From NCBI GenBank assembly GCA_013388835.1, contig JACAEL010000021.1, forward strand, positions 1 to 35,425: 35,425 nucleotides of DNA. The letters run 5' to 3'. The notes under the pieces were generated by a model that searched no databases, was not told where the DNA came from, and saw only the letters and a list, made by a program, of their open reading frames with translations. Position numbers and translations under genes: made by a program. Of the stretch, positions 7,677-25,444 are shown piece by piece (positions within the stretch are counted from its first letter, which is position 1; every line of letters starts with the position of its first letter). Source of the stretch: Candidatus Thorarchaeota archaeon (GTDB lineage Archaea; Asgardarchaeota; Thorarchaeia; Thorarchaeales; Thorarchaeaceae).

Positions 7677-8456
7677 TCATTTACCGTAACGACGCGAACG
7701 CTGTTCATATGATCGTATTGCCCGCCAGATGTCAATTCTACGTACAGCAGGCCAGTAGACCTGAGCGAAGTAGAGCTCCGAGTAGGCAGACTGCCACAGT
7801 AGGAATCCGGATAGTCGCTCTTCCCCAGAGGTGCGTATGATCAAGTCGGGGTCAGGGACACCGTTAGTGTAGAGATGCTTCTCTATCAACCTCTCATCAA
7901 TGTCTGAAGGAGAAAGTGTTCCCGAGGATATCTTCGATGCAATAGCCTTCACAGCATCCACAAGCTCAGCACGTCCCGAGTAACCAATGGCCACATTGAG
8001 AATATGGTCCGAGTACTTGGCGGTCTCCTCCTCTGCGGCTGCGATGGCCGCTTGTACCTCTTCGGGAAGCAGGTCCACCCGACCTATCGCATGGATTCGC
8101 ACTTTGTGCCGATGCACATCTGGGTTACCAACCACTTCACTGAACTTCTCTTTGGCCAAGGCCATTATCTCCCTGACTTCATCGGGTTGGCGCTGAAAGT
8201 TCTCGATGGAGAAGGCGTATAGTGTGCAGACTTTCACACCAGCCTCCCAGAGTATCTTGAGGACATCCATGACCTTCTTTGCACCCTTGTGGTGACCAAA
8301 CCAAGGGACCTTCAGTCCGTGCTCTCTCGCATAACGACGGTTACCATCTAGTATTATGCCCACATGGCGAGGAGCCTTGTCTTTTGAGAGCTGTCTGAAC
8401 AGAAAGTACTCGTAGAGCCGATAGACCGGGCCGCTAAGGTTCAATCTACTGCACAC
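7677..8456 (-). CDS. uppS: Cis-prenyltransferase (undecaprenyl/polyprenyl diphosphate synthase)
   Basis: A 259-residue cis-prenyltransferase that extends an allylic diphosphate with isopentenyl diphosphate to make the long polyprenyl carrier used for membrane-bound glycan assembly. In archaea the product supplies dolichol-type carriers. Diagnostic motifs are GIILDGNRRYA with the catalytic Asp at residue 37, TLYAFSIENF, and the DLIIRTSGEERLSGFLLWQS signature with the following YSELYF. The GTG start has no obvious ribosome site. A CCTATTAGG element is centred 27 nt upstream, which suggests a leaderless transcript. It follows the roadblock gene by 55 nt and is probably transcribed separately. 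Confidence 0.95.
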   Translation of the reverse strand: MCSRLNLSGPVYRLYEYFLFRQLSKDKAPRHVGIILDGNRRYAREHGLKVPWFGHHKGAKKVMDVLKILWEAGVKVCTLYAFSIENFQRQPDEVREIMALAKEKFSEVVGNPDVHRHKVRIHAIGRVDLLPEEVQAAIAAAEEETAKYSDHILNVAIGYSGRAELVDAVKAIASKISSGTLSPSDIDERLIEKHLYTNGVPDPDLIIRTSGEERLSGFLLWQSAYSELYFAQVYWPAVRRIDIWRAIRSYEQRSRRYGK

Positions 8457-8511: not shown

Positions 8512-8883
8512 CTAGATCATCTTGGCGACCTTGTCAGCCGCACGTTTCATGTCAAGGAAGACAAGTCCCAGTTTCGCGTTGCTCGAAGTGGAAACAGTGA
8601 GGCAGGCATTCATCCCAGCTTGGACAACCAGCACCCAACCATCTTGACCCTTGACATTGACCTGCTCCAGATTGCCCTTTCCCAGCTCTACCGCAGCCTT
8701 CTCTCCAAGCGTAAGCATCGCCGCAGTGATTGCGGCCAGCTTCGCCTCGTCAACATCCGCTGGCAGAGCTGAAACAATCGGGAGACCTTCGACACTCACT
8801 ATGGCACAAGCCTCAATCTCCGGAATGCTGCCCTGCAGCTCATTCAGGACTCCTTCAAGGGTTTCTTCACGGGACTCGCTCAT
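8512..8883 (-). CDS. Roadblock/LC7 domain protein (MglB-like)
   Basis: A 123-residue single-domain roadblock/LC7 protein. Its pattern is an N-terminal helix (ETLEGVLNELQ), strand-turn-strand IEACAIVSVEGLPIVSALP, a long central helix rich in Ala (about residues 42-66), then strands around VLVVQAG and ACLTVST. Family members dimerise and act as partners or activators of Ras-like GTPases (MglB for MglA, Ragulator subunits for Rag). It lies 20 nt downstream of the GTPase gene in the same direction, so the two products are likely made together and may bind each other. GGTGA precedes the ATG by 9-10 nt. Confidence 0.88.
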   Translation of the reverse strand: MSESREETLEGVLNELQGSIPEIEACAIVSVEGLPIVSALPADVDEAKLAAITAAMLTLGEKAAVELGKGNLEQVNVKGQDGWVLVVQAGMNACLTVSTSSNAKLGLVFLDMKRAADKVAKMI

Positions 8884-8903
8884 CGACTACACTCACCCGA
8901 GTA

Positions 8904-9467
8904 CTACTTGTACATCCTTTTGAGGATTACCTCTCTTGCTATGGCTTGAAACGCTCTCTTAACTCCTACGCCCTGAACCGCAATAGTCTCGTAGATTGGA
9001 ACATTGCCTCCAAGACCAAGCAGATCCAGCATCTCGTCACGCGACATCCTGTTCGGCAGGTCACGTTTGTTAAGCATTACGACAATGGGAATCTCTCGTC
9101 CCAACACATCGCCAAGAAACAGCTTCAGCTCCTCGAAGCTCTCAACATTCTCATCTCTCTGGTCAGGAGAGGAGTCTGCAACAAACACTATGCCATCTGT
9201 ACCCTGCAACACAACCTTCCGCTGATGGCGGTGGCGCTTCTGACCGGCAACAGTGAACACATCGAAGAGCACTCGGCCACCCGCAGACATGGGAACGTAG
9301 TCAAAGAACAGGGTCCGATTTGTCTCGTCTTCGATTGCGGTGAACTCACCCTTCTGCAGACCCTCGACCTTTCCATAGAGCCACCTCAGTGCAGTGGTCT
9401 TGCCTCCTAGACTGGGTCCGTAGAACACCAGCTTCAAGTGCACTCTGCCTTGTGAGTCTTTTCTCAT
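8904..9467 (-). CDS. MglA-like small GTPase
   Basis: A 187-residue Ras-superfamily GTPase of the MglA type. The P-loop is GPSLGGKT (residues 17-24). TLFFDYVPM corresponds to the MglA switch I region. G3 is TVAGQ, where MglA has TVPGQ, followed by the MglA-like run DGIVFVADS. G4 is LNKRDLP and G5 is around IAVQG. There is no C-terminal lipidation cysteine. The ATG at 9467 is preferred because GGTGA lies 8 nt upstream; that GGTGA overlaps a GTG four codons earlier which would otherwise be the start. The adjacent roadblock genes encode the class of partner that regulates MglA and Rag GTPases. Confidence 0.9.
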   Translation of the reverse strand: MRKDSQGRVHLKLVFYGPSLGGKTTALRWLYGKVEGLQKGEFTAIEDETNRTLFFDYVPMSAGGRVLFDVFTVAGQKRHRHQRKVVLQGTDGIVFVADSSPDQRDENVESFEELKLFLGDVLGREIPIVVMLNKRDLPNRMSRDEMLDLLGLGGNVPIYETIAVQGVGVKRAFQAIAREVILKRMYK

Positions 9468-9667
9468 TTTGCAGTTCACCGTTTCTTTGGCGAGCGGTCT
9501 GAGTTGGCGGGTGTAACTGCCCTCAAATAGTTAACTCTTTCTGGTCCTAATCACCAAAGCGCGCCAAACGCGGCACTGAATCCAGATGGTCCGGTCCACC
9601 TAGAAAAGCGTTGGAAACGTACGCTCACTGGGCACCGCTCCTGTGAGTAGTCTTGAGGGCCATGAGA

Positions 9668-10144
9668 CTAGACACGTTCGAGCTCTGCCAGGGCCGACTT
9701 GAGGTCTTCCTCATCGAGTTCCTTGTCTTTTGTCGAGCCATCGGGTTCGACGGCAAGAAACTTCTCAAGCTCTTCAGCAAGCTGCACGCCGTACTTCTTC
9801 ATGACAAGACGTACCAGACCAATGTTGACCTCAGGCTCTGATACGACGCAGAGCACACCCTTTCCGCATGCAGAGGCGAAGATCTTGCCTTCTGAGAACT
9901 CGGATGTGACTATCTCTAGGTCACCTATCTGAAGATTCTTCCCCTGTTCCTCGCTAGCACAGAAAACCGCACTTGCAATCGCCCCTATGCTGTCAAGGTC
10001 AACCGGGAAGTATGTGAGCTTGCTCACGTTTGCTATGGTGAGACCAGTCTTGTCGACAAGAATCACCTTCCTGCAGCCTTTCTCCTGACGGATGATCTCT
10101 GTTAGGATTCTATCGAATGCCTTTGGATCGGTCACTTTGTTCAC
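9668..10144 (-). CDS. Roadblock/LC7-like protein with acidic C-terminal tail
   Basis: A 158-residue protein with a roadblock-type fold pattern: helix FDRILTEIIRQE, strands KVILVDKTGLTIAN, a central helix (about 50-66, IGAIASAVFCASEEQG), and strands around GDLEIVTSEF and KIFASACG. A C-terminal helix and an acidic tail (DKELDEEDLKSALAELE) follow. It is longer than the neighbouring roadblocks because of that tail. The GTG start overlaps the stop of the upstream roadblock gene in the sequence GTGA, so the two are translationally coupled and may form a heterodimer. A specific partner cannot be read from sequence. Confidence 0.82.
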   Translation of the reverse strand: MNKVTDPKAFDRILTEIIRQEKGCRKVILVDKTGLTIANVSKLTYFPVDLDSIGAIASAVFCASEEQGKNLQIGDLEIVTSEFSEGKIFASACGKGVLCVVSEPEVNIGLVRLVMKKYGVQLAEELEKFLAVEPDGSTKDKELDEEDLKSALAELERV

Positions 10145-10482
10145 CTCTTGAGGACCACGAGTATGAGGCCCTCCTTGACATCTGGAGCGATGTTAATCTG
10201 ACCATTGGATGTGTCTAACGTGAGAAAAGACAGACTCCCCTCTCTCAGTTCTCGGACGGCATCGAGTGCCTTTCCGACCAGAGCAGTCGTTATAGCAGCG
10301 ATGGTTTCAGTTCTGTCGACGTCAAGGTCGCTGAACAAGGGGAAGCCTTCCATATTCGTGACTACCACACCCCGGACTCCTTCTTGGGTCCGCAATTCGG
10401 CGAGTATGGCTTCGAGCTTCTCCTGGCTAATAAACTGAAGTCCCTGCTTTGTTGGGTTCTGCCTTAGTAAGTCGTACGCCAC
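10141..10482 (-). CDS. Roadblock/LC7 domain protein
   Basis: A 113-residue roadblock/LC7 protein. Helix KLEAILAELRTQEG is followed by VRGVVVTNMEGFPLFSDL (strand-turn-strand), the helix ETIAAITTALVGKALDAV, and strands FLTLDTSNGQINIAPD and GLILVVLK. It is the first gene of a pair whose second member overlaps it by 4 nt. The start is GTG. A possible TATA element lies only about 13 nt upstream, which is too close for this start, so the promoter is unresolved. A GC-rich hairpin separates the gene from the upstream Sec23/24-like gene. Confidence 0.85.
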   Translation of the reverse strand: MAYDLLRQNPTKQGLQFISQEKLEAILAELRTQEGVRGVVVTNMEGFPLFSDLDVDRTETIAAITTALVGKALDAVRELREGSLSFLTLDTSNGQINIAPDVKEGLILVVLKR

Positions 10483-10572
10483 GCAAATGGTATTTTAGAC
10501 TTGTGGCAATGTGCTATCCAAGAGCAGCATCTTTTGCGCATTTGTGACCGAGTGTCACATGAAGTGGAGGTG

Positions 10573-10589
10573 GGCGGCCACTGGCCGCC
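10573..10589 (-). terminator. GC-rich hairpin after the Sec23/24-like gene
   Basis: GGCGGCC and GGCCGCC form a perfect 7-bp stem with a 3-nt loop, 25 nt beyond the stop at 10614. A second, weaker hairpin (TGTGAC/GTCACA, 10543-10559) lies further along. No T-tract follows, so termination is only a suggestion. RNA processing or mRNA-end stability are alternatives. Confidence 0.35.
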
Positions 10590-10613
10590 TCTCTGGTCTC
10601 TGCAGATTGAGAA

Positions 10614-12275
10614 CTACTCATCCTCTTTCTCATCGAAGAGCTCCTTGGAACTGCGTTTCATCTGCTTGAAGCCCCTTGTGAAGGCCTCGTCAGCTGCAGC
10701 ACAGGGAGCGCCACCTTGGGCAGGAGCAGCCGCCATCTTCGACTCCATCTCTTGCAGATTAGCCTCTTCAGAAGCCAGAGCGTCATCGGCACGTTTCATT
10801 CGGGCTTGTACCGCTTTCGGCGCAGCCTTTGTCTTCTTTGCCAAGGCCGCACGGAAGCCAGCGATGCGATCCGCACCAGCGGCCCTCTTGCCTCCGAAAG
10901 CGTCTTCACCCGCCTTCTGTGTGACGAAAGTCGCACTCATTGTGGGGTCGAGAGTGGCGACGAGGTCTCGCTCATCGCTTGTGACGCGCAGATTGGTGCT
11001 CACTGCACGGACCCTTCGTGCACCCTCTTCATCAGTATATGTGACTTGGACCTGGACTGGGACTTGCGCGGACCTTATCTCTGACTCAGGTTCCACCTCA
11101 ACATACAGCTCGTGATCTTCACCGACTGCTCCAATCCGTCCCGACCCAGTCTTGGTTATCTCCTCGATTGCGGCTCTGGAAACACCTGATGCGTCTTTCA
11201 CTCTTACCCCCTTGGGGGTCAGGAGCCGAATCTCAACATCCCTGCCCAGCAACGAAGCACCCGCAAGCTCGGAGAGGCTCCTGTCAAGCTCATTGGGAGT
11301 GACATAATACATCTGACCTCCTGTGGCCTCGGGCAAAAGGCCGAGCGTCTTCAGCTCCATACCTGCTCCCGAAGCAATACCGACTACATCGAATGCAGTT
11401 CCCAGTTCTCTGAACATCGTCCCGAGTGTCGCGTAGTAGCTGCCTGCAGGAGTCACCTGATATCCCTCAAGGGCGCCAATTCCCTCATTGGCAAGCCCAT
11501 CGGTGAGAAGCACCACCCTGGCAATGTTCCGATGCTTCGCTATCACGTACGCCACCGCAACAGCGGGACCCAACGCGGTCCCACCCATCTCACGAAGACT
11601 ACTCACATGACGCTTGAGACCACTCAAGTTCGGACCAACCTTGATGAGTCTGACTCGGTCTAGCAGTCGCTTAGTTGCCTCCATAATCTGATCGAGGTTG
11701 GCAAATGTCTCACATGGTACTTCAACGCGTTCGCCCGTTTCGAGATTGCGAACTGCAACCGAGCTCTCAAACTCAACAAGCCCGAACAGGGTTTCCGGAC
11801 TGTTTGCTGCAAGACTCTCAATGGATGTTGTCAGGCTCCGCTTGACTGCAGCCAGGTTGGCACCCGCCATCGAACCGGAAACATCTATGACTGCAAGGAA
11901 GGACCCGCCAGCGGGGGCTACTTGCCCGCGGGAGGTCGTCTTCTCAGGCGGGGGCTGGACTACGAATTCCGTTTCATTTCCAGCGATGACAATCTCGCCC
12001 TCAATGACGTTGAGGGTCCCGCAGAAGGGACAGACGAAGTGCTTACCTACCTTGGGGTCATGTTGAATCTGGTCAGCGCTCATCAGGAACCCATTGCACT
12101 TGTGGCATGCTATCGGTTTCCCTACAATCTTGTGGGTTTCTCGCGCGAGGTCTCGGAACTCCACGCGGAGAACATAAGGAATGTCACTCATCACCTTGCG
12201 CGAGGCTGGAAAGGCCTCTGAACTGCTCTTTAGTATGGGCATGGGAATTGTCGCTCCATCGGATGACTCAGTCAC
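10614..12275 (-). CDS. Sec23/Sec24-like protein: Zn finger plus VWA trunk
   Basis: A 553-residue protein with the domain order of the COPII inner-coat proteins Sec23/Sec24. A four-Cys zinc finger (C57, C60, C82, C85) is followed by a von Willebrand A/trunk-like domain (about 125-325), a beta-rich segment (about 345-450) and a Lys/Ala/Glu-rich helical tail. The metal site of the VWA domain looks intact: DVSGS (D131, S133, S135), T233 in MGGTALGP and D259 in LLTDG. Eukaryotic Sec23/24 have largely lost it. Sec23/24-like proteins have been reported in Asgard genomes. No gelsolin-like domain is visible. The start is uncertain: a TATA-like element at 12291-12300 fits the ATG at 12242 (residue 12) better than the GTG at 12275. 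A plain Zn-finger VWA protein is the alternative reading. Confidence 0.75.
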   Translation of the reverse strand: MTESSDGATIPMPILKSSSEAFPASRKVMSDIPYVLRVEFRDLARETHKIVGKPIACHKCNGFLMSADQIQHDPKVGKHFVCPFCGTLNVIEGEIVIAGNETEFVVQPPPEKTTSRGQVAPAGGSFLAVIDVSGSMAGANLAAVKRSLTTSIESLAANSPETLFGLVEFESSVAVRNLETGERVEVPCETFANLDQIMEATKRLLDRVRLIKVGPNLSGLKRHVSSLREMGGTALGPAVAVAYVIAKHRNIARVVLLTDGLANEGIGALEGYQVTPAGSYYATLGTMFRELGTAFDVVGIASGAGMELKTLGLLPEATGGQMYYVTPNELDRSLSELAGASLLGRDVEIRLLTPKGVRVKDASGVSRAAIEEITKTGSGRIGAVGEDHELYVEVEPESEIRSAQVPVQVQVTYTDEEGARRVRAVSTNLRVTSDERDLVATLDPTMSATFVTQKAGEDAFGGKRAAGADRIAGFRAALAKKTKAAPKAVQARMKRADDALASEEANLQEMESKMAAAPAQGGAPCAAADEAFTRGFKQMKRSSKELFDEKEDE

Positions 12276-12290
12276 ACAGTCCCCGCATAC

Positions 12291-12300
12291 GGTATTAAGA
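12291..12300 (-). promoter_or_regulatory. TATA-like element for the Sec23/24-like gene
   Basis: TCTTAATACC on the - strand lies about 54 nt before the ATG at 12242 and 21 nt before the GTG at 12275. It belongs to a divergent promoter region shared with the roadblock gene on the other strand. Confidence 0.4.
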
Positions 12301-12344
12301 GATTCTACTCTGTCTTCTTCAACTCAATCGCACAAGAGGAGAAG

Positions 12345-12352
12345 ATATATAC
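12345..12352 (+). promoter_or_regulatory. TATA element for the divergent roadblock gene
   Basis: ATATATAC, 60 nt upstream of the ATG at 12411, is a good TATA box. It would leave a leader of about 35 nt that contains the ribosome site GGAGG at 12397-12401. Confidence 0.5.
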
Positions 12353-12410
12353 CAATCGTCCAAGACTCTGTTGCGAAGATGCTGGAGGACAGCATCGGAG
12401 GCCAATACGA

Positions 12411-12776
12411 ATGGTCGACAAGTCAAAGATTGAGGCAATCGTTGCAGAGACAATGGGCGCTAACCCTGACATACAAGGTATGATAGTCTGTGATGCATCG
12501 GGCAAGGTGCTGTTCGGTCATACAATCACTGGAGGCATCAACCACTCAGAGGTCGCAAGCCTGTCTGTGAAGATTGCTGCAATTTCTGCTCAGCTTGTAG
12601 GTGGCATTGACAAGGGAGGCCTCAAGGAGGTCGACATAACAGCAGACCAGGGACTTGTGATGATACTTGGCGACGTCAAGATGGTGCTTGCTGCAATCTC
12701 AGGCGAGGCTGCCAGAGAGTCCATGGGGCTCATTCGCATGGCATTGAGAAGAGCACTCGTAAACATGGTGGCCTAA
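12411..12776 (+). CDS. Roadblock/LC7 domain protein
   Basis: A 121-residue protein with the roadblock/LC7 pattern. An N-terminal helix (KIEAIVAETMGAN) precedes IQGMIVCDASGKVLFGHT (strand-turn-strand), a central helix around SLSVKIAAISAQLVGG, strands LKEVDITADQGLVMILGD and KMVLAAIS, and a C-terminal helix. GGAGG 9 nt before the ATG fixes the start. It is the fourth roadblock gene within 4.3 kb and the only one on the + strand. It is divergent from the Sec23/24-like gene, so both are probably controlled from the same 135-bp region. Confidence 0.85.
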   Translation: MVDKSKIEAIVAETMGANPDIQGMIVCDASGKVLFGHTITGGINHSEVASLSVKIAAISAQLVGGIDKGGLKEVDITADQGLVMILGDVKMVLAAISGEAARESMGLIRMALRRALVNMVA

Positions 12777-12877: not shown

Positions 12878-12956
12878 TAGGAGCCAGTATCTTCCCCATA
12901 ATGCCGCAAGACACGCCAGCCGCTTGTCGTAGCGCAGCTTGAAGGATGATGGTGCC

Positions 12957-15900
12957 TTGGTCTACATAGAGAAGCTTGTATGCAAGGGCTTCAAGTCGTT
13001 CGGACGAGACACTGTAACCATAAAGCTAGACCCCGGGTTTACTTGCATTGTCGGCCCAAACGGGGCGGGCAAGTCCAATGTCATCGACGCGATACTCTTC
13101 GTACTTGGGCAGCTCAGTGCGAAGACGCTACGCGCGACTGTGTTTTCAGACCTTCTCTACTCGCCCCCAAAACCAGACATGCCTCCGAAAGCCAAGTCCG
13201 CTGTGGTTGAGATTCACTTCAACAACAGGGACAGAAGACTCCAAGTGGACACAGACAAGGTGGTAGTAGAGAGAGAACTCGACGATACTGGGAAGTCAGT
13301 GTGCAGGGTCAACGGGAAGATAGTGACACGCCTGCAGGTGTTGGATCTCCTCGGCAGCATAGGTGTCGACCCCAATGGCTACAATCTGGTCCTACAGGGG
13401 GAGATAGCTCAGATGGTCAAAGTCAGTCCAAATGACCGGAGGAAGCTGATAGAGGAGATTGCAGGTATATCGGCGTATGACGAGCAGAAGGAGAGAGCTC
13501 TCAAGAAGCTCTCGGAAAGCGAGGGGAATCTGGCAAGAGTTGAAACCCAGCTGCAGGAGCGACGACGACAGCTTGAGAAACTGGAAACGGAACGCTCTGA
13601 CGCCCTCAGATATCAAGGCGTGAAACAAAAGATTCAGTCGATTAGGATTGACAGTCTTGCCTGGACCTTACTCAAATCGACAAACAGGATTGCCACAATA
13701 GACCATACACTTGCAGAGAAGGCCCAAGAAATCGAGCGTACATCACAGGAGTTTGCACACGTTGAAGAGAGCATTGTTTCGACCGAACATGAGATAGAAG
13801 CGATAGACCAAGAGATTGAACAGATAACCGGTGGAAACTCGGCCCGGGTTTCAGAACATTATGGAGTACTGTCCGCTGCGGTGGCCCACGTCAGGGAATC
13901 ACTCGAGAGAGCAAAGGAAACGCTTCGCCGGAGTGTTGAGGAGCGGACAAGCCTTGAGCAGGAGTTGAAGTCGACTAGAAATCAGATTGAAGAGTCATCG
14001 AAGGCGAGGCATAGTAAGGAGCAGGAACTGGTAGACCTTGACAGGGAAATCGAGAAGACCGTAATGGAAATGGGCCGGTTAGAAGAGAGCCTCCAGAGAG
14101 AGCAGACCACGTTCTACGAAACTCAGCAGAGACTCCAAGACCTAAACAACCAGGCAATTGCACTAGACGAAGGGATATCTGAAGTAAGGTCGGCCATGAG
14201 GAGTGACGAGAAGGAACTCGGACTGGCATATGAGGAATTGCGCGACTCGGAGGAGAGCCTGAAAAGGACTGGCGAAGAAATGGCTTTGTTGGCACAGATG
14301 CTGCCTGCCAAGAGGGAGGAACTCAGTACAAGCGAAACACTAGAAGCGGCAAAACGCTCTGAAGTTGAAGACATCTCCAAGCGCTTGATTACAGTGAATT
14401 CGCAAGTGGACGAGTCCGTCCGTCTTGTGAATGTCACGAGGGAAGAGCTGATCAAGCTACAAGCTAGACAGGAAGCGCTCAAGGAGGCGGAGGAGGCCTT
14501 TCTCAAGCGAGAGAAGGCGGTCGCGAGAGTCTTGGAGATGCGTGACACGGGAGAGGTCCAAGGCATTCACGGAACAGTGGCCGAGCTGGGCAAAATAGAC
14601 CCCGAGTACTCGGTAGCTCTAGAGATTGCTGGTGGCAATAGGCTAACCTACATCGTGGTCGATGACGAACAGGTGGCGACAGAGTGCATCAGGGTCCTGA
14701 AAAAGGAGAAGGTTGGTCGTGCGTCGTTCATTCCATTGACGAGAATCAAATCAAAGTCACCCGGTCATGTCCCTGATGATGAGAGAGTGATTGGCTATGC
14801 AATGGACCTCGTGAGCTTCGAACCAAGATATCTTCCGGCCTTTGAGTTCGTGTTTGTGGACACCATAGTCACGGAGGACTTTGAAACTGCCAAGCGCATG
14901 GGGTTCAAGGGGTGGCGTGCTGTCTCAATTGACGGGGACCTTGTAGAGAGGTCAGGACTAATCACCGGTGGGCACTACCATAGAGGAAAGTCGGGCATCT
15001 CGTTGCAGGTTCAGGACAACAGCTCTGAGATTATGGAGAAGCTGAAGGGATTGGAGCAGATACTCTCTGACTTGAGGACACAACAGACAGAGCTCAGGAA
15101 TAGAGAGAAGCAGACGGACAGAGAGATTCAACAGTTATCCAAGAAGATATACCAATTGAGAATCGAGACCAAGGGTCTCGAGGACCAGTTAGAGGAGAAG
15201 CGGGCAAGACAAGAGAAACTCACTCAAAGAATCTCACAACTCAGACTGACCATTGAAGAACTCGAGTCGCAGATTGCGACACTCAGAGAGAGAGACACGG
15301 AGATGTCTGGTCGTCGCGAATCTGTCCGCAGCCAACGAGACGAGATGAGAGAGGCTCTTGCAAAGTCCGCGGCATCCAGATTGACTCAAGATATCAAGGA
15401 TTTGCAGGAAGTTCTTGCTTTCAGTAGAAAGAAGCGGGAAACCTATCACAGTGAGCTCACTCGACTACAGGTCGGGGTGGAACAGAGACTGATACCCAAG
15501 GCTCAAGAACTGGAGAGCCGGATTCAGACCGTCGAGTCAGTCATTCCGAACATGCAGGCGGAAGTGGAGAAGCAGACCGTGGAACTCTCTCAGAAAGAGG
15601 CGGAATTGGAGGAACTGAGAACTCAGAGAGAAAGAATAGAGGAAGCGGTCAAAGACAGACGTGTAAGACAAATCCAGCTGAAGGAGGACCTGAGGAACCT
15701 GAGGCTCAGGTTGGAGGAACTCAGAGAGGCTCAGACCAGCAACGAGAAGGCGGTGTACAGACTTCAGACCGAAAGGTCAAGAATTGAGGCGGACATAGTT
15801 GGTATCAGGGCTGAACTCGCAGCAGTCACCGACCCGGATGAGGAGTTGACGAAGCGTATGTCTCAGAGGGAACTGAGCCATAGTGAGATAGAACAACTCC

Positions 15901-16547
15901 AAGAGAAGATTCGAGAACTAGAGAGAGAACTGGAGGCAATGGGTGCAGTGAACCTCAAGTCACTGACCGACTATGATGCTGAGAGAGAAAGGTATGACGA
16001 GATAGTGGAAAGGAAGGTCAAGCTTGAGGAGGAGCACAAGGAGATCCTCAGTTTCATGGAGGAGCTCGAGAGAGAGAAGACACGCAAGTTCCTGGTCGTC
16101 TACAATGAGATTGCAGACAACTTCGCCAAGGTCTTTGCCAAACTCTCACCGGGTGGAGAAGCCAGTCTAATGCTGGAGAACCCCGAGCATCCACTCATGG
16201 GCGGGATAACCGTGCGTTCCAAACCCGCAGGGAAGGAGCTCGTCACTCTGGACGCAATGAGCGGGGGCGAGAAGACTCTCACAGGACTCGCGCTCATATT
16301 CGCCATCCAGATGCATAGTCCAGCAAGCTTCTACGTCTTTGACGAGATTGACGCGGCCCTTGACGAGGTGAATGCGCATAACGTTGCCAATCTCATATCA
16401 GAGATGTCGAAGTCGTCACAATTCATCGTTGTTTCACTCAGAGACACAACGGTTGCAAAGGCGGACTTCCTTGTGGGAGTCACCAATCAGGACGGACTGA
16501 GCAGAATAGTTGACGTCGACCTTCAGGAGGTGTCACAGACGTCATGA
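12957..16547 (+). CDS. smc: Chromosome segregation ATPase SMC
   Basis: A full-length SMC protein of about 1196 residues, the ATP-driven ring protein that organises and separates chromosomes with ScpA and ScpB. The N-terminal head starts VYIEKLVCKGFKSFG and carries Walker A GPNGAGKS (about residues 33-40). Long coiled coils flank a hinge around 525-680 (GIHGTVAELGKIDPEY through ITGGHYHRG). The C-terminal head has the ABC signature MSGGEK (about 1100) and Walker B FYVFDEIDAALDE (about 1127-1139). The TTG at 12957 is preferred over the TTG at 12939 because GGATGAT lies 6 nt upstream and homologues start at this point. The stop overlaps the scpA start by 4 nt (ATGA). Confidence 0.96.
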   Translation: MVYIEKLVCKGFKSFGRDTVTIKLDPGFTCIVGPNGAGKSNVIDAILFVLGQLSAKTLRATVFSDLLYSPPKPDMPPKAKSAVVEIHFNNRDRRLQVDTDKVVVERELDDTGKSVCRVNGKIVTRLQVLDLLGSIGVDPNGYNLVLQGEIAQMVKVSPNDRRKLIEEIAGISAYDEQKERALKKLSESEGNLARVETQLQERRRQLEKLETERSDALRYQGVKQKIQSIRIDSLAWTLLKSTNRIATIDHTLAEKAQEIERTSQEFAHVEESIVSTEHEIEAIDQEIEQITGGNSARVSEHYGVLSAAVAHVRESLERAKETLRRSVEERTSLEQELKSTRNQIEESSKARHSKEQELVDLDREIEKTVMEMGRLEESLQREQTTFYETQQRLQDLNNQAIALDEGISEVRSAMRSDEKELGLAYEELRDSEESLKRTGEEMALLAQMLPAKREELSTSETLEAAKRSEVEDISKRLITVNSQVDESVRLVNVTREELIKLQARQEALKEAEEAFLKREKAVARVLEMRDTGEVQGIHGTVAELGKIDPEYSVALEIAGGNRLTYIVVDDEQVATECIRVLKKEKVGRASFIPLTRIKSKSPGHVPDDERVIGYAMDLVSFEPRYLPAFEFVFVDTIVTEDFETAKRMGFKGWRAVSIDGDLVERSGLITGGHYHRGKSGISLQVQDNSSEIMEKLKGLEQILSDLRTQQTELRNREKQTDREIQQLSKKIYQLRIETKGLEDQLEEKRARQEKLTQRISQLRLTIEELESQIATLRERDTEMSGRRESVRSQRDEMREALAKSAASRLTQDIKDLQEVLAFSRKKRETYHSELTRLQVGVEQRLIPKAQELESRIQTVESVIPNMQAEVEKQTVELSQKEAELEELRTQRERIEEAVKDRRVRQIQLKEDLRNLRLRLEELREAQTSNEKAVYRLQTERSRIEADIVGIRAELAAVTDPDEELTKRMSQRELSHSEIEQLQEKIRELERELEAMGAVNLKSLTDYDAERERYDEIVERKVKLEEEHKEILSFMEELEREKTRKFLVVYNEIADNFAKVFAKLSPGGEASLMLENPEHPLMGGITVRSKPAGKELVTLDAMSGGEKTLTGLALIFAIQMHSPASFYVFDEIDAALDEVNAHNVANLISEMSKSSQFIVVSLRDTTVAKADFLVGVTNQDGLSRIVDVDLQEVSQTS

Positions 16548-17263
16548 CGGACAATGACACACCATTCTGGGCCGAACCACCCTACATTCTACTGACAGAT
16601 GTACTTCAGTTGGACAAGATTGACCCTTGGAATGTGGATGTGGGAAAGCTGGTCGCCGGTTTTCTGCAGGAGATGCGACGACTTGGGGACATCGACTTCA
16701 GAGTGTCAGGAAACGCGTTGTACTCTGCGTCAGTAATCTTCATGAAAAAGACGAAGGACCTCGTGGACCTTGGAGTGCTGCCGCCGGAGGAGAGAGAAGA
16801 AGAGGAGGAGGATCTAGTCATCCCCATGATTAGGCCACCGTTCAGACTCACCAATCGACGAGTCACACTGCAAGAGCTGTTGGTAGCAATGGATCGCGTC
16901 CTCTCAAAGGGCGTTAGAGAGAGACAGATTCCGACCGCTAGACGAAGGTCAAAGACGTTTGTCACGCCTCTCTCGTTTGAGATGGAATCGGAACGTACGA
17001 ATGTTGAAGAGAACATCGCAGAGGTGTACGCGGACCTAAGGCGAATTCTGAGTACTGGTGATGTGATCAAGTTCACTGATGTCTTGATGAACAACACACG
17101 GCGCGAAATCGTACGGGTCTTCTTTGCCATCCTTCATCTCTATGCTCGGGCGTTGATAGACATCTGGATGGATGAGGATGATGTAATATGGATCAAGATG
17201 TCGGAACCACCCGAGGATTATGGACGGAAAGTCCCCACTGACCAGCCATCCCTTGAAAGATAG
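16544..17263 (+). CDS. scpA: Segregation and condensation protein ScpA (kleisin)
   Basis: A 239-residue kleisin that bridges the SMC heads. The N-terminal region has the ScpA pattern LLTDVLQLDKIDPWNVDVGKL (about residues 16-36), then helices around FRVSGNALYSASVIFMKK, a glutamate-rich linker (EEREEEEEDL) and the conserved helical part VTLQELLVAMDRVL. The C-terminal winged helix covers about 160-230 (DVIKFTDVLMNN, REIVRVFFAILHLYAR). Its ATG overlaps the smc stop as ATGA, which indicates coupled translation. The stop codon abuts scpB. Confidence 0.93.
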   Translation: MTDNDTPFWAEPPYILLTDVLQLDKIDPWNVDVGKLVAGFLQEMRRLGDIDFRVSGNALYSASVIFMKKTKDLVDLGVLPPEEREEEEEDLVIPMIRPPFRLTNRRVTLQELLVAMDRVLSKGVRERQIPTARRRSKTFVTPLSFEMESERTNVEENIAEVYADLRRILSTGDVIKFTDVLMNNTRREIVRVFFAILHLYARALIDIWMDEDDVIWIKMSEPPEDYGRKVPTDQPSLER

Positions 17264-17272
17264 GTGATATTT

Positions 17273-17824
17273 GTGAATGAAGACATGGTCACGCTTGAGG
17301 CAGCATTGTACGCTGCTGGTCGACCAATGACACTGCAGGAACTGGCAGAGATTGTCGGCAAGGCAGAGTCAACAGTACAGAAACTGCTGAAAGACCTTGG
17401 CTTCGAATACAATAAGAGAGGCGGTGCCCTAGAGGTAGTGGAGCTGCCGAGGGACAGATACGCAATGCAGCTAAGGCCTGAACTCACCCCTCGAGTAGCC
17501 AAACTCATCCCTGGGGGTCTTCTCTCGTACGCCACGCTTCAGACTCTGGTCTACATCGCGCTGAAACAACCGATACTGCAGTCAGACTTGGTGGCGGACC
17601 GTGGGACACATGTCTATGAGCATGTCAAGGAACTTGAGGAGAAGAAACTCATCGAGGCCACACCAGAAGGAAGGAGCAAGGTGTTATCCACAACTCAGCT
17701 GTTCGCGGACTACTTTGGTCTTGATACGGACATAATCAGAATGAAGGCCCAGCTGAAACACAAACTGAAGCAGATACTCGAAGAACAGAGCAACACTGAG
17801 AGTACTGTTCAGACGCAGCTCTAG
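17273..17824 (+). CDS. scpB: Segregation and condensation protein ScpB
   Basis: A ScpB protein of about 183 residues with two winged-helix units. The first covers about 5-80 (VTLEAALYAAGRPMTLQELA, STVQKLLKDLGFEYNKRG), and the second follows about 85-165 (LLSYATLQTLVYIALKQPIL, YEHVKELEEKKLIEATPEGR). ScpB dimers bind the kleisin ScpA in the condensin-like complex. The GTG at 17273 is chosen because AGGTGAT (17262-17268) lies directly upstream. A GTG at 17264 is inside that ribosome site, and ATG 17285 is another option. The ribosome site itself overlaps the scpA stop codon. The gene ends in a 4-nt convergent overlap with hypE. Confidence 0.92.
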   Translation: MNEDMVTLEAALYAAGRPMTLQELAEIVGKAESTVQKLLKDLGFEYNKRGGALEVVELPRDRYAMQLRPELTPRVAKLIPGGLLSYATLQTLVYIALKQPILQSDLVADRGTHVYEHVKELEEKKLIEATPEGRSKVLSTTQLFADYFGLDTDIIRMKAQLKHKLKQILEEQSNTESTVQTQL

Positions 17825-19406: not shown

Positions 19407-19997
19407 TCAGACAGGACCGAGTATGATTCCGTCCGGCAACTCATCCAGAAGTAGTCCTTCAGCCTCCGCCTTCTTCACTGCAGCTAGTGCTTTCGGGCCC
19501 CCAATGTTCTCAAGGGCTCCAGCTGCAGTCTGCCTGACGAACAGAGATGAATCGTGAAGGGACTCTATCAGAGATGGTATGGCACTGGGATCCTTCCGTT
19601 CACCCAATTGCACGGCAGCAAACAGTCGAACCATGTATCTGGGGTCCTTCAGACATGCTGTCAGAGCGCTTGTGGCATCTGAGTCTGGGAGGATTCCAAG
19701 TCGATCAATCGCATTCAGAACAACCTGTTGGTCCTCGCTCTTGATCTCTCTGAGAAGTTCGTCAACCATTGGAGAGGGTACTGCAGTCTTCGTCGTGGTC
19801 TTCTTACCCGAAGTTGTCTTTGCAGACGGGCTCCTCGTGGACTTGGTCTTGAGACTCGAGGACTTCTTCGTACCTGGTCGAGGCTCTTTCACATGCGCAG
19901 GCTTCGCGGGCGTTGACTTCTGGGCCTTCTTCGATGCCGTCGGGCGCGCCTCGGGCTTCGAATCAGGCGTGGCGGTCTTCTTCGTGGTCTTGGGCAT
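19407..19997 (-). CDS. HEAT-repeat protein with histone-H1-like basic tail
   Basis: A 196-residue protein in two parts. Residues 1 to about 75 are low-complexity and rich in Lys, Thr, Ser, Pro and Ala (MPKTTKKTATPDSK..., KKAQKSTPAKPA, SAKTTSGKKTTTK), much like the tail of histone H1. Residues about 78-196 are HEAT/PBS-lyase type helical repeats (VVLNAIDRLGIL, YMVRLFAAVQLGERKDPSAIPSLIESLHDSS, FVRQTAAGALENIGGP). HEAT repeats bind proteins; a tail like this often binds nucleic acid, so a DNA- or ribosome-associated adaptor is possible. The ATG at 19997 is chosen over 20030 because the TATA box would start transcription near 20022 and AGAGGTG lies 7 nt upstream. Confidence 0.75.
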   Translation of the reverse strand: MPKTTKKTATPDSKPEARPTASKKAQKSTPAKPAHVKEPRPGTKKSSSLKTKSTRSPSAKTTSGKKTTTKTAVPSPMVDELLREIKSEDQQVVLNAIDRLGILPDSDATSALTACLKDPRYMVRLFAAVQLGERKDPSAIPSLIESLHDSSLFVRQTAAGALENIGGPKALAAVKKAEAEGLLLDELPDGIILGPV

Positions 19998-20044
19998 GGA
20001 ACGCACCTCTGGCCAGAGTATTGCATACAAGACTCCCCCCGCAA

Positions 20045-20075: not shown

Positions 20076-20459
20076 CTAGTTTCCCACCTCCACCTCAATG
20101 TCGGTGATAACAAACTCCTTTCCGCCAGATATTGTTGTATGGCTGCCACCGCACCTCGAGCACTTCATGGGGGCAAAAATGGCAACCTGCGGCGGAAGTG
20201 AATAGTCCACTTTGCTCTCGCCCTCAAAACCGCACTCCTGACACTTCAAGCGCCCCTTGGTTCTCTTGATGTGAAGCTCAGCTCCCTCCATGATTGTATC
20301 CTTTGAGGCAATCTCGAAGTTGAACGCAAGCTGCTCTGGAACCAAGAACGTAAACTCACCGACTTCGATGTTCACCGCCTTTATCCTCTTGACCTGGTGT
20401 GCCTTGGCAGCGTCAAGAGCAGCCTCAACTATTGAGAGAGCAGCAGAGAACTCATGCAT
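20076..20459 (-). CDS. hypA: Hydrogenase nickel-insertion protein HypA
   Basis: A 127-residue HypA that delivers nickel to the NiFe-hydrogenase active site together with HypB. The N-terminus MHEFSAALSIV carries the Ni-binding Met1-His2 pair. The zinc site is C73-x2-C76 and C100-x2-C103. The helix-strand pattern KAVNIEVGEFTFLVPEQLAFNFE is typical of the family. Length is normal. A TATA-like palindrome lies 32 nt upstream. It is on the same strand as hypE but separated from it by the S8e and HEAT genes, so the two hyp genes are not one operon. Confidence 0.95.
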   Translation of the reverse strand: MHEFSAALSIVEAALDAAKAHQVKRIKAVNIEVGEFTFLVPEQLAFNFEIASKDTIMEGAELHIKRTKGRLKCQECGFEGESKVDYSLPPQVAIFAPMKCSRCGGSHTTISGGKEFVITDIEVEVGN

Positions 20460-20486
20460 TTTGCTCTCGACACGTTGCCTGTTTGT

Positions 20487-20496
20487 AACATATGTT
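20487..20496. promoter_or_regulatory. Palindromic TATA-like element upstream of hypA
   Basis: AACATATGTT is a perfect 10-bp palindrome centred 32 nt before the hypA ATG. It may be the hypA TATA box, an operator, or both. Confidence 0.35.
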
Positions 20497-20532
20497 GTTT
20501 TTGCTATGACCGCTAACGAATATACACCTAGG

Positions 20533-20540
20533 TTTTATTA
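20533..20540 (+). promoter_or_regulatory. TATA element for the winged-helix/Zn-ribbon gene
   Basis: TTTTATTA is centred 44 nt upstream of the ATG at 20581 and would give a leader of about 18 nt. It supports that start over earlier in-frame codons. Confidence 0.4.
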
Positions 20541-20580
20541 TGTGCCTCTGTGTAGAACTGGGCGAGAAGTCTTTACGGTG

Positions 20581-21120
20581 ATGAAACAGGTGAATGGCAT
20601 TAGCGACATTCGGCAGCTGGAGGCAGCAATCAGAGACCTCGAGTTTGATTACATGAGAGGGCTGGTGTCAGAAGAGGATTACAAGAAGAGAATGGCGGAC
20701 CTCAACACCCGGCTTGTCGCAGCTGGTGGGACGCCTAGGGAACTCCCATCCGCCCCCAAAGTGGTATCATCTCAGCTGCGCCCGACCAGACTCCTCGACA
20801 AGAAGACACTGGTTGATCCGGTGACTGCGGTCAGAAGGACTGTAGAGAGTATGCGCAGAATACCCATTGAGAGGATTGCACAGGAGGCAGGGGTGCCCAC
20901 ACACATCGCCAGCAAGGTCCTTGCCGACCTCTTGGATGGCAGAGAACTCTCAGGCAGACTTGACCATGATTCTGGGGACTTCATACTTGGGACCGGGACC
21001 GGTCCCGCCCCCAAGACCATCGCAGTGTGTCCATACTGCAGGTACGAACTCAAGCGGATTGCTGTCAAAGGGGAGACAATCACCTGCAGCATGTGTAGAG
21101 AGTCATTCGTTGTTGTATGA
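20581..21120 (+). CDS. Winged-helix protein with C-terminal Zn ribbon, unknown function
   Basis: A 179-residue protein with three parts. Residues 8-46 form a helical hairpin with a SHOCT-like pattern (LEFDYMRGLVSEEDYKKRM). Residues about 94-136 are a winged helix (IPIERIAQEAGVPTHIASKV, then GRELSGRLDHDSGDFI). Residues 150-172 are a zinc ribbon (C150, C153, C169, C172). The winged-helix ending G-x-L-x-G-x-x-D-x-x-x-G-x-x resembles the PCI domains of eukaryotic proteasome-lid and COP9 subunits as well as ordinary DNA-binding winged helices. I cannot name the family. The frame is open further upstream, but the ATG at 20581 lies correctly behind a TATA element. A transcription-related role is the simplest guess. 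Confidence 0.7.
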   Translation: MKQVNGISDIRQLEAAIRDLEFDYMRGLVSEEDYKKRMADLNTRLVAAGGTPRELPSAPKVVSSQLRPTRLLDKKTLVDPVTAVRRTVESMRRIPIERIAQEAGVPTHIASKVLADLLDGRELSGRLDHDSGDFILGTGTGPAPKTIAVCPYCRYELKRIAVKGETITCSMCRESFVVV

Positions 21121-21278: not shown

Positions 21279-22841
21279 CTATTTCTTGTCCCCTTTCCTG
21301 TAAGACTCGGCCAGCAAGTCGGGAATGTATCTGGTCTTTATCTCTGTGCCCTTCAGGATGTCGGATATCTGGATTGTACAGAATGGACACTCCGTAGCAA
21401 CCATCTCAGCACCTGTGGCCTCGATGTACTCCTTCTTGGTGGTGGCTATCTTCTGAGATAGTTCCCGCTTTCCTGCGCGGACACCACCACCTGCACCACA
21501 GCAGCGGTTCCGATAAGGGTCTGGGATATACTCTATGCCCGGAATGAGCTTCAGTAGATCTACCGGCTGGTCCACGACCCCCTGCCCCCTGCCGAGATGG
21601 CATGGCTCATGATAGGTGATCTTCGTCTTGATGACACCCTTGGGCTTCACGATGTTCTCAATACCAATCACATCAATCATGTACTCTGCCAAGTCGTACA
21701 CTTTGAACTTCGGAGGTTCGCCTCGTTCTTCCTCAATCAGCGGTCGATGGTCTTCCCGGAGAGTCTTGCCGCAGCCAGCACATGCAACTACGACCGTGTC
21801 TAGGTTGTACTTCTCTGCGACAGTCTCGAATATCTCCGTGACTCTGTGAGCTGCAGCCCTAGCAGTGTGCAGGTCACCCGTCCTAAAGGCGGGACTAGCA
21901 CAACACCACTGCTCTTTGGGCACTACAACATCGATGTTGTTCCGATTGAGCACTTCAATCAGAGACCGCCCGGTTTCCTGCATCCTATAGTCTATCAGAC
22001 ACCCGGTGAAGAAGGCCACTCGGCCTCGCGGGTTCTTTACGAAGAAGGTCTCTGTGTCGATGCTCTTCAGGAGAGGGGTGTCCTTCACAGGCACAGAACG
22101 ACCCGTAGCGACAATCGAGTCCACGAAACCCTGTTGTCCCTCGGCCAGCGGATAGCCGGCCTCAACAGCCTTAGCACGCAGAAGCTCCACGGCTAGGCTG
22201 GGAATCTTGATCTTCTTTGGACAGATGTCTTCGCACATCTTGCAAGTCGTACAGGAGTACAACGACTCGTCCATCGCCATTGCCACACGGTCCTCCACAT
22301 CACGTGGGTCGAGTTCCAGCCGCGCAAGCTGCCGGATGATCATTGGTCCAGGGTAGTCCCAAGTCTCATGGACAATGGGGCAGTTCGACAGGCAGGCGCT
22401 GCACTCAATGCACTTCCTTATCTCCCTGAGCTTCTCGATCTCTTCAGAGTGGATTATCTCCGGTCTCTGAGGAGGCTTATCACGAGCGACATACGGGCGA
22501 ATGCGCCGAATCCTGTAGGTGACCTGAGAGATGTCAACAACCAAGTCCTTGATGATTGGCATCTTCTCAAGTGGCTCAAGTAGAAGATCTCCTTTGGGGT
22601 TCACTTTCGTCCTGCATGCAATTCTTGCAATGCCATTGACTCTGACTGCACAGGAACCGCATTGACCACCTCTACACTCCCATCGAAATGCGAGGCTGGA
22701 GTCGTACTTGTCCTGGATGTATAGAAGAGCGTCGAGAACCGTCATTCCCGGTTTGTACTCGACATCGAACTCTTGGAGGAATGGTGCATCGTCCTTGTCC
22801 GGGTTGTATCGCTGGACTCTGGCTTTGATTGTCTTTGTCAT
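21279..22841 (-). CDS. tfrB: Fumarate reductase Fe-S/CCG subunit, TfrB-type
   Basis: A 520-residue fusion of a SdhB/FrdB iron-sulfur part and a heterodisulfide-reductase HdrB-like part, as in thiol:fumarate reductase subunit B of methanogens. Residues 56-76 hold a 2Fe-2S site (C56, C61, C64, C76). Two ferredoxin motifs follow (C144, C147, C150, C154 and C197, C200, C203, C207). Two CCG domains come next: WCCASPAF with VVACAGCG, and YHEPCHLG with RCCGAGGG and ATECPFC. In methanogens the CCG part oxidises coenzymes M and B; the donor thiol here is unknown. No membrane-anchor gene is adjacent. The gene follows tfrA after 12 nt. Confidence 0.92.
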   Translation of the reverse strand: MTKTIKARVQRYNPDKDDAPFLQEFDVEYKPGMTVLDALLYIQDKYDSSLAFRWECRGGQCGSCAVRVNGIARIACRTKVNPKGDLLLEPLEKMPIIKDLVVDISQVTYRIRRIRPYVARDKPPQRPEIIHSEEIEKLREIRKCIECSACLSNCPIVHETWDYPGPMIIRQLARLELDPRDVEDRVAMAMDESLYSCTTCKMCEDICPKKIKIPSLAVELLRAKAVEAGYPLAEGQQGFVDSIVATGRSVPVKDTPLLKSIDTETFFVKNPRGRVAFFTGCLIDYRMQETGRSLIEVLNRNNIDVVVPKEQWCCASPAFRTGDLHTARAAAHRVTEIFETVAEKYNLDTVVVACAGCGKTLREDHRPLIEEERGEPPKFKVYDLAEYMIDVIGIENIVKPKGVIKTKITYHEPCHLGRGQGVVDQPVDLLKLIPGIEYIPDPYRNRCCGAGGGVRAGKRELSQKIATTKKEYIEATGAEMVATECPFCTIQISDILKGTEIKTRYIPDLLAESYRKGDKK

Positions 22842-22853
22842 TCGTATTGCCTC

Positions 22854-24542: not shown

Positions 24543-24597
24543 AAGCAATCCTCCATGGTGCTCTTGCTTACTATCGCAGTCTGCCCAGAATGAGTCC

Positions 24598-24606
24598 GGT
24601 TTAAAG
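24598..24606 (-). promoter_or_regulatory. TATA element for tfrAB
   Basis: CTTTAAACC on the - strand lies about 60 nt before the TTG start. It predicts a leader of about 35 nt containing GGAGG. Confidence 0.5.
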
Positions 24607-24658
24607 TTGTTACTATAGTACTGCGAACAAGAGGTCACTGACGGCATTGAAAGACAAA

Positions 24659-24667
24659 CCTATATGG
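24659..24667 (+). promoter_or_regulatory. TATA element for the 26-residue membrane protein
   Basis: CCTATATGG is centred 35 nt upstream of the ATG at 24698 and would leave a leader of under 10 nt. Confidence 0.45.
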
Positions 24668-24697
24668 AAATTGAAGGTACAATTCACAGTGGGAAAA

Positions 24698-24778
24698 ATG
24701 AGTTTCACGTTAGAGAATGCACTGATGACCATCGCGCTGATGGTCTTGCTGGTCATAGTCCTCTATGGACTCATCTAA
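24698..24778 (+). CDS. 26-residue single-pass membrane microprotein
   Basis: A short complete frame from ATG to TAA encodes a 26-residue peptide. Only the first six residues (MSFTLE) are polar. Residues 7-26 form one continuous hydrophobic helix ending YGLI. It has its own TATA element, it is followed by a hairpin at 24810-24827, and it occupies the gap between the fumarase and fumarate reductase genes on the opposite strand. These three points favour a real gene over a chance frame. A membrane anchor or small regulatory subunit for the neighbouring complex, which lacks an SdhC/D-type anchor here, is a speculation. No family is recognised. Confidence 0.5.
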   Translation: MSFTLENALMTIALMVLLVIVLYGLI

Positions 24779-24809
24779 TGAATGCTGACAGGATATAGTG
24801 GTGCACTGA

Positions 24810-24827: not shown

Positions 24828-24834
24828 GGTATGT

Positions 24835-25443: not shown

Positions 25444-25444
25444 A

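Follow-up and report, generated by a model that had tools for sequence, protein, structure and literature searches.

We found that a Thorarchaeota gene, whose product is identified by its sequence and modelled fold as a homologue of Sec23 and Sec24, heads in Thorarchaeia a cassette for an MglA-type small GTPase and four roadblock proteins, where it lies between two of the roadblock genes, here called RoblD and RoblC. The gene was studied in a 35,425-nucleotide stretch of contig JACAEL010000021.1 (assembly GCA_013388835.1), referred to as the window throughout, from a genome of 3.0 Mb in 125 contigs. The host belongs to the Asgard archaea, the closest archaeal kin of complex cells. The protein appears to keep a complete metal ion-dependent adhesion site (MIDAS) in its von Willebrand factor A (VWA) domain. 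In our preferred reading, to which we give an even chance, this single-copy Asgard homologue of the Sec23/Sec24 core, with its ancestral MIDAS, would be a cytosolic adaptor that works with the MglA/roadblock switch and may be physically coupled to it. Such a pair is a possible forerunner of Sec23/24-Sar1. The gene cluster, which a preliminary description of the window did not contain, is the more informative part of this result.

Results

Domain architecture and predicted fold

The preliminary description had placed a Sec23/24-like protein at 10614-12275; the coordinates are right, the gene however lies on the minus strand (Table 1). Most Thorarchaeial relatives start with a Met-Pro at the equivalent of residue 12, so that the real start is probably at the ATG of position 12242 and not at 12275. 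Residue numbers throughout are those of the 553-residue open reading frame (ORF).

Both Pfam and the predicted fold agree with the order proposed in that description, namely a zinc finger, a VWA domain, a beta-rich segment and a helical tail with no gelsolin domain. The Sec23_trunk family matched at 1.7e-9 (38.1 bits, above the curated cut-off of 27), with the generic VWA_2 family close behind (2.8e-8). The Sec23_BS match (9.8e-7, 29.7 bits) was below its cut-off of 33.5, and so was that of zf-Sec23_Sec24 (0.0033, 17.9 bits, cut-off 25), which scored E 6.4e-4, likewise below cut-off, in a search of the protein's own genome. The predicted zinc ligands are C57, C60, C82 and C85. Neither Sec23_helical nor the gelsolin domain gave a Pfam match on the window protein at E<=5; the helical domain is assigned from the predicted fold, and the protein ends after these helices. 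The only NCBIfam match was to the generic VWA model TIGR03788 (26.7 bits, where the cut-off is 551.65), and no Sec23/24 model was in the answer. The highest 19-residue hydropathy mean was only 1.53, at a core strand of the VWA domain, and the protein therefore has no clear membrane helix.

The same domains recur in the relatives. Among 27 Asgard homologues from nine families, the trunk and the beta-sandwich matched in 27/27 and the finger in 26/27 at a Pfam E<=1 (best finger 4e-5); the generic VWA and VWA_2 models matched the same proteins too (27/27). A profile built from these homologues and compared with the PDB matched yeast Sec24 at 9.2e-19, across the finger, trunk, sandwich and first helices, followed by Sec24A (7.5e-16), ArnB (1.2e-8), Sec23 (about 1e-6) and the generic VWA protein ITIH1 (1.3e-4). 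When the single sequence was searched against the PDB, Sec24B came first, at only 0.0058. The profile is thus nearer to Sec24 than to Sec23, whereas the fold scores are tied, and we draw no claim of ancestry from this difference.

An AlphaFold2 model built from 31 Asgard sequences reached a mean pLDDT of 87.6 and a pTM of 0.88. In a Foldseek search with this model, ranks 1-46 were all Sec23 or Sec24 chains (E 4.8e-29 to 1.6e-19), five of them chains of 9ya0, a Toxoplasma assembly with named Sec23 and Sec24 chains. The bacterial VWA protein 4fx5 (rank 47, 1.2e-16), ArnB (8s05, 7.8e-15) and ITIH1 (2.1e-13) came after them. We also aligned the model with VIA-align, whose rows are the highest Foldseek-ranked structures, so that absences from it carry no weight. 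Sec24A gave Z 28.6 (494 residues, 4.3 A) and Sec23A Z 28.3 (491 residues). The Sec23/24 rows as a whole spanned Z 22.3-28.6 over 486-506 residues, the weakest lying at Z 22-25 yet still covering about 490-500 residues. ArnB 8s05 gave Z 25.0 (358 aligned of 381 residues), vWA2/ArnE 5a8j Z 22.3 and 4fx5 Z 22.0. The Sec23/24 alignments cover model residues ~10-553, finger and helical tail included; for the helical domain they reach residue 553, for example against Sec24A 378-947.

Chance cannot account for these domain matches. The preliminary description had considered that a structure search might place the protein closer to generic bacterial VWA proteins, with the finger in another position than in Sec23. 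Sec23 and Sec24 instead ranked ahead of the first bacterial VWA protein, and the finger lies inside the span aligned with their structures; of the two profiles named there, Sec23_trunk passed its cut-off and zf-Sec23_Sec24 matched below it. A generic bacterial VWA protein that acquired a finger by chance is rejected, as Sec23/24 head the Pfam, PDB-sequence and fold rankings.

Relationship to ArnB and bacterial VWA proteins

In its order of finger, trunk, sandwich and helices and in its predicted fold the Asgard protein resembles Sec23/Sec24 of the COPII inner coat (PF04810, PF04811, PF08033), its best matches. It differs from them in having no gelsolin domain, a single copy, an intact MIDAS and an MglA-type rather than a Sar1 neighbour. 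ArnB and ArnE (vWA2) of Sulfolobus and, from bacteria, 4fx5 and YfbK-like VWA proteins likewise combine a VWA domain, a split beta-sandwich and a helical C-terminal domain, with an intact MIDAS. ArnB is distinct in that its finger is on a separate chain (ArnA), it is controlled by phosphorylation and its sequence match to the Asgard protein is weaker; finger and VWA chain are one protein in Asgard archaea, as in Sec23/24. Excerpts of a 2026 paper on ArnAB state that Sec23/24 share the domain arrangement of ArnB, that ArnA, in common with Sec23/24, has a finger and that Heimdallarchaeota encode related proteins (PMC12852372).

We compared the Asgard profile with a set of bacterial proteins of the VWA/sandwich/helix type, which aligned with it from the VWA domain through the helices (hhalign E 1.3e-29, 310 columns). 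Against the PDB the bacterial set found ArnB at 6e-23 and no Sec23/24 among 52 matches at E<=0.001. Among the matches listed, 24 of the 25 bacterial relatives had no CxxC motif, and that of the remaining one (L127) is at residue 240. By this profile evidence, the bacterial proteins are true distant relatives. The Asgard proteins thus take a place between Sec23/24 and a VWA/sandwich/helix family that is widespread in prokaryotes.

The best of the other explanations, although a doubtful one, is that the protein is an ArnB-type regulator. Hanks-type kinases would phosphorylate its tail, which a phosphothreonine-binding partner would then recognise in the control of the cell surface or motility, with an ArnA-type finger fused to the VWA chain and a GTPase that is unrelated or co-regulated. 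The fold matches to 8s05 (within the weaker Sec23/24 range) and 5a8j and the domains shared with the bacterial relatives are in line with this, and the ArnAB paper, in the sections available, describes the ArnA finger as docking on the ArnB sandwich and C-terminal domain, its authors comparing ArnAB with Sec23/24 (PMC12852372). The Asgard protein is however nearer to Sec24/Sec23 than to ArnB both in sequence (9.2e-19 versus 1.2e-8) and in fold (Foldseek 4.8e-29 versus 7.8e-15), and neither an FHA nor a protein kinase domain was detected by Pfam in the 30 further window ORFs scanned, an FHA partner not having been sought in the rest of the genome.

The metal site and its ancestry

The residues that the preliminary description had named as a complete MIDAS, D131-x-S133-x-S135, T233 and D259, proved to be exactly those conserved in the family. 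We analysed 65 distinct long Asgard homologues, the window protein included, of which 56 were also found by a motif-free protein search and nine, among the matches listed, came from a pattern scan alone whose patterns contain MIDAS residues. D131, S133, S135, T258 and D259 were invariant in this set, and position 233 was Thr in 64 of the 65 and Ser in one (L070). The zinc cysteines were present wherever the sequence covers the finger (two of the 65 rows start inside the finger at contig ends).

The site looks different in eukaryotic coat proteins. The first motif of yeast Sec24 retains DVS with a Ser close by, but SGTLPN replaces TDGLAN, so that D259 corresponds to Gly. Human Sec24B has DVSHN as first motif, Ser at T233 and Gln-Thr in place of T258-D259, and human Sec23A has DTCME and IGGPAT for the first and second motifs, as placed by eye. 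From these sequences the MIDAS appears degraded, not erased, in the solved eukaryotic Sec23/Sec24, with the first motif partly kept in Sec24.

All MIDAS positions were kept in 25 of 25 bacterial VWA/sandwich/helix proteins among the matches listed, a set drawn with MIDAS-containing patterns, so that this count leans on the choice of patterns except for the equivalent of T233, which is absent from both. Crystal structures of ArnB, vWA2 and 4fx5 have an intact MIDAS, and that of other VWA proteins binds an acidic residue of the ligand, as reported in the accessible parts of the publications (PMC12852372, PMC6509490 for the structures; PMC6509490 for the ligand). Because ArnB and the bacterial proteins keep the site too, the intact MIDAS looks ancestral. 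The simplest order of events suggested by the alignments is an intact MIDAS first and its loss on the eukaryotic branch. The idea of an ancestral metal site, put forward in the preliminary description, is supported by this polarity: intact in Asgard, bacterial and ArnB/vWA2 proteins, degraded in Sec23/Sec24.

Distribution in Asgard archaea

Published reports of sec23 and sec24 homologues in Thorarchaeota go back to 2017 (Zaremba-Niedzwiedzka 2017, as cited in PMC9648965), 'Sec23/Sec24 protein families' have been reported in Thorarchaeota (PMC7997004) and COPII homologues in Asgard archaea (PMC10307638), according to the excerpts of these papers. The window gene is very probably a member of the reported Thorarchaeota group.

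The nearest named relatives are from Thorarchaeota metagenome-assembled genomes, with up to 70% identity, and within Thorarchaeia the proteins are 45-71% identical. Named homologues also occur in Hermod-, Jord-, Loki-, Heimdall- and Sigynarchaeia (at least 33 Asgard loci, L052-L084, in a peptide-pattern scan of contigs). A protein search found a homologue in 72 of 195 Asgard genomes, 41/47 in the window's own family and 31/148 elsewhere, some of them being fragments at contig ends. With the Sec23_BS model at E<=0.001, 66 of the 195 genomes were positive (controls 0/14), and 50 exceeded the family cut-off, the window's own genome among them (34 bits). Exactly one Sec23_BS match was present in each of the 66 positive genomes, so that a Sec23 plus Sec24 pair of paralogues was seen in none.

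In a tree of 31 Asgard proteins every family with more than one row formed a clade, and recent exchange between families was therefore not seen in this sample; the deep order is weak, with nine of 28 inner branches open. The gene is one open frame between the SMC/ScpA block and uppS. This setting, the single open frame and the neighbours kept in 35/36 distinct Thorarchaeial loci led us to reject eukaryotic contamination.

The GTPase and roadblock cassette

Table 1. Features of the window discussed here and domains of the Sec23/24-like protein (domain positions in residues).
Feature	Position	Strand	Remarks
Sec23/Sec24-like protein	12275..10614	-	GTG start, 553-aa ORF
C4 zinc finger, preceded by N-terminal strands	residues 54-91		in Sec23/24-like protein
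VWA trunk with predicted intact MIDAS	residues 125-340		in Sec23/24-like protein
Sec23-type beta-sandwich	residues 346-432		in Sec23/24-like protein
Helical tail	residues 435-547		in Sec23/24-like protein; helices of the model
RoblC, roadblock/LC7 (LAMTOR5-like)	10482..10141	-	Robl_LC7 4.3e-15, LAMTOR5 1.9e-6; directly downstream of Sec23/24-like gene
RoblB, MglB-like roadblock	10144..9668	-	Robl_LC7 2.8e-10; overlaps RoblC by 4 bases
MglA-type (Arf-like) small GTPase	9479..8904	-	191 residues; Pfam Arf 2.3e-14
RoblA, roadblock/LC7	8883..8512	-	Robl_LC7 1.2e-16
uppS-like cis-prenyltransferase	8456..7677	-	Prenyltransf 7.8e-78; next in same-strand array, position conserved
RoblD, divergent roadblock-like	12411..12776	+	read away from Sec23/24-like gene
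SMC	12939..16547	+	NCBIfam SMC_prok_A 3.7e-267; conserved cassette flank
ScpA	16544..17263	+	Pfam SMC_ScpA 1.7e-10; conserved flank
ScpB	17264..17824	+	Pfam SMC_ScpB 4.8e-34; conserved flank

We examined the neighbourhood of the gene at 58 other Thorarchaeial loci, which collapse to 36 with distinct proteins. In 35 of the 36 the following gene, on the strand of the Sec23/24-like gene, was RoblC, and RoblD was divergent upstream in 32 of the 35 loci with upstream sequence (missing in L010, L027 and L051). Among 21 loci with at least 4 kb downstream, the GTPase was found downstream in 20, at a distance of 3.3 kb in L151 and 4.9 kb in L056, and RoblA in 19 (missing in L051 and L149). One locus, L051 of genome G036, has none of RoblC, RoblD, GTPase and RoblA beside the gene.

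The GTPase matched MglA in the PDB at 7.8e-39, Arf4 at 2.9e-12 and Sar1b at 6.7e-8. Its switch II reads TVAGQ, against TVPGQ in MglA, and its switch I NRTLFFD, against DRTLFFD, with an Arg aligned with Arg53 of MglA. RoblB matched the NCBIfam MglB model at 5.6e-5, far below cut-off, and the Pfam family MAPKK1_Int at 7.5e-6; in the PDB its matches were a roadblock/LC7 protein (1.3e-4) and MglB (3.9e-4). The window RoblD had no Pfam match at E<=0.01 (Robl_LC7 0.049), but Robl_LC7 matched at E<=1, and at best at 1.4e-5, in 16 of 16 rows of its family, one locus being present twice, and the family profile matched a solved roadblock protein at 8.5e-11.

Both the GTPase (90-97% identical to 11 other Thorarchaeial rows) and RoblB (78-88% identical to 14) are more alike than the Thorarchaeial Sec23/24-like proteins (45-71%), L050 and L062 being one locus in these counts. 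Among 195 Asgard genomes, 168 have relatives of the GTPase (E<=1e-35) and 173 have relatives of RoblB (E<=1e-12), more distant paralogues counted in. Many Thorarchaeial genomes also have a second, longer MglA-type GTPase (open frame of 275-391 aa), about 50-55% identical to the cassette one (for example G012:C31:30533-31075).

The GTPase and four-roadblock cassette is common to many Asgard genomes. We compared 14 non-Thorarchaeial loci picked by hand, 13 for the closeness of GTPase and RoblB and one (G164) for a lone GTPase, together with G028 and G036 as Thorarchaeial cases. RoblC, RoblB, GTPase and RoblA were in line in 10 of the 14, a count that is no frequency given the choice of loci. RoblD was divergent beside RoblC in seven (directly in six, with one gene between in L166), and six continued directly into uppS. 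None of the 14 had a Sec23/24-like gene inside the cassette, and in six of these genomes the gene sits on another contig. The gene-free site in other Asgard classes suggests that the gene joined the cassette on the Thorarchaeial line. G036 nests within Thorarchaeia in the tree (93/88, not starred) with its gene unlinked, and loss or movement therefore occurs too.

Outside the cassette, a Ras-like GTPase gene lies about 0.9 kb upstream of the Sec23/24-like gene in Lokiarchaeial loci (L075 6539-7072) and about 4 kb from it in Heimdallarchaeial loci (L071 3312-4022). A conserved GTPase neighbour outside Thorarchaeia was not used as evidence, as Asgard genomes are rich in GTPases and roadblock proteins (excerpts of PMC10307638 and PMC10933270) and such proximity may arise by chance. 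In L041 (7616-8122, family f26) a roadblock gene is directly upstream of the Sec23/24-like gene.

The cassette resembles two known systems. With the MglA/MglB switch of Myxococcus and Thermus it shares an MglA-type GTPase and, in RoblB, a protein resembling MglB; unlike that switch, the Thorarchaeial array has four roadblock genes and the Sec23/24-like gene at its head. The four roadblock proteins encoded in 8512-12776 equal the number in Ragulator, and two of them have weak LAMTOR-family matches, RoblC to LAMTOR5 and RoblB to MAPKK1_Int, which we take to be LAMTOR3. Ragulator-Rag combines four roadblock subunits with GTPases, as summarised in the available portion of PMC10933270, and is similar to the cassette in this respect. 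The putative Thorarchaeial complex differs in that its only GTPase is of MglA type, 191 residues long and not fused to a roadblock domain.

Elsewhere in the window, a gene for a PCI-domain protein (20290-21120, +; 1.9e-5) lies near one for a HEAT-repeat protein (19407-20030, -; 1.9e-16), which together recall eukaryotic multi-subunit complexes, and at 21279-26332 (-) genes for a flavoprotein of the succinate dehydrogenase/fumarate reductase type and an iron-sulfur protein adjoin two fumarase subunits.

Discussion

The Sec23/24-like protein most likely acts as a soluble adaptor. Its VWA metal site may grip a partner or cargo by an acidic residue, while the finger, sandwich and helical tail would supply the scaffold. 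In Thorarchaeia the MglA-type GTPase and its roadblock (MglB-like) regulators would determine the place or time of its action, with the cell membrane as the probable site. In Sec23, the gelsolin domain carries an arginine that activates Sar1. Such an arginine may be dispensable here, because the GTPase keeps the switch-I Arg of MglA and roadblock proteins can be GTPase-activating proteins (GAP) or guanine nucleotide exchange factors (GEF). The cassette roadblock proteins would serve as GAP/GEF for the MglA-type GTPase as in Myxococcus, where excerpts of PMC10933270 describe MglB in this role and MglA-type GTPases as relying, by prediction, on an arginine of their own. The polarity of the characters suggests that the MIDAS was lost, a gelsolin domain gained and the gene duplicated into Sec23 and Sec24 at a later stage, in the eukaryotic lineage.

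It is improbable that the protein is already a coat subunit, polymerising on membranes and forming together with the GTPase a minimal inner coat of the COPII kind. The fold match to Sec23/Sec24 over the whole core and the Arf-like GTPase as gene neighbour would fit such a coat, but it has no gelsolin domain at E<=5, its single copy per positive genome leaves no Sec23-Sec24 heterodimer, and it retains the MIDAS, unlike coat proteins.

Several observations weigh against the adaptor working with the MglA/roadblock switch. The linkage is limited to Thorarchaeia, the gene being apart from the cassette in the Hermod-, Jord-, Loki-, Heimdall- and Sigynarchaeial loci that were read. Even within Thorarchaeia, G036 (L154 7419-7681) has a gap of 262 bases between RoblD and RoblC with no Sec23/24-like gene, a divergent copy lying on another contig, and in G028 (L169 7079-7171) the cassette is intact and the gene cut to about its last 31 codons. 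This remnant is 84-87% identical to three near relatives and reflects either a recent loss or an assembly fault. As both genomes keep the cassette without the gene, the cassette is independent of it, and a putative shared transcription may be accidental. The GTPase is also closer to MglA than to Sar1, so that any continuity with the Sar1 pairing is conjectural. Finally, an ORF recognised by eye as MoxR-like AAA+ lies 3.8 kb from the gene in L047 (13810-14790, family f18), an arrangement in keeping with a different VWA partnership.

MoxR-type ATPases are common partners of VWA proteins that have a MIDAS. That the protein is a generic VWA adaptor for a MoxR-type AAA+ or other chaperone partner, outside membrane and GTPase work and in the cassette by chance, would agree with this habit, with the L047 ORF and with the unlinked genes of other Asgard lineages, but is unlikely, given that no MoxR-type gene was seen among the window ORFs scanned and that the roadblock/GTPase linkage is kept in 35/36 distinct Thorarchaeial loci.

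A bolder form of our preferred reading, which we regard as speculative and rather unlikely to hold in full, is that Thorarchaeia have a living forerunner of Sec23/24-Sar1. In it an Arf-like GTPase of the MglA type known from bacteria, set by four roadblock proteins in a small Ragulator-like arrangement, would load a Sec23/24-like adaptor whose metal site still grips its ligand. A VWA adaptor of the cell membrane, positioned by a GTPase, would on this view have given rise to COPII and surrendered its MIDAS on becoming a structural coat.

Neither the conserved MIDAS of Asgard Sec23/24 proteins nor the linkage of their gene to an MglA/roadblock cassette was mentioned in the open-access literature searched, in so far as its texts were available, preprints and most subscription journals lying outside it. 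A 2024 study of Asgard GTPases and roadblock proteins notes, in the excerpt available, that in the Lokiarchaeote MK-D1 the genes of the two kinds do not as a rule share operons, which hampers their matching (PMC10933270). The Thorarchaeial layout does pair a GTPase with roadblock proteins, and the copies compared of the GTPase in this cluster are 90-97% identical.

The origin of vesicle coats is an open question, and a GTPase partner of the Asgard Sec23/24 homologues was not found in the same literature. The intact site common to ArnB and the bacterial relatives suggests a sequence in which the metal site came first and was lost in the eukaryotic coat. The gene setting suggests what the Sec23/24-like protein may have worked with before becoming a coat, and reduces the pre-COPII role of Sec23/24 to a few binding and metal tests on soluble proteins.

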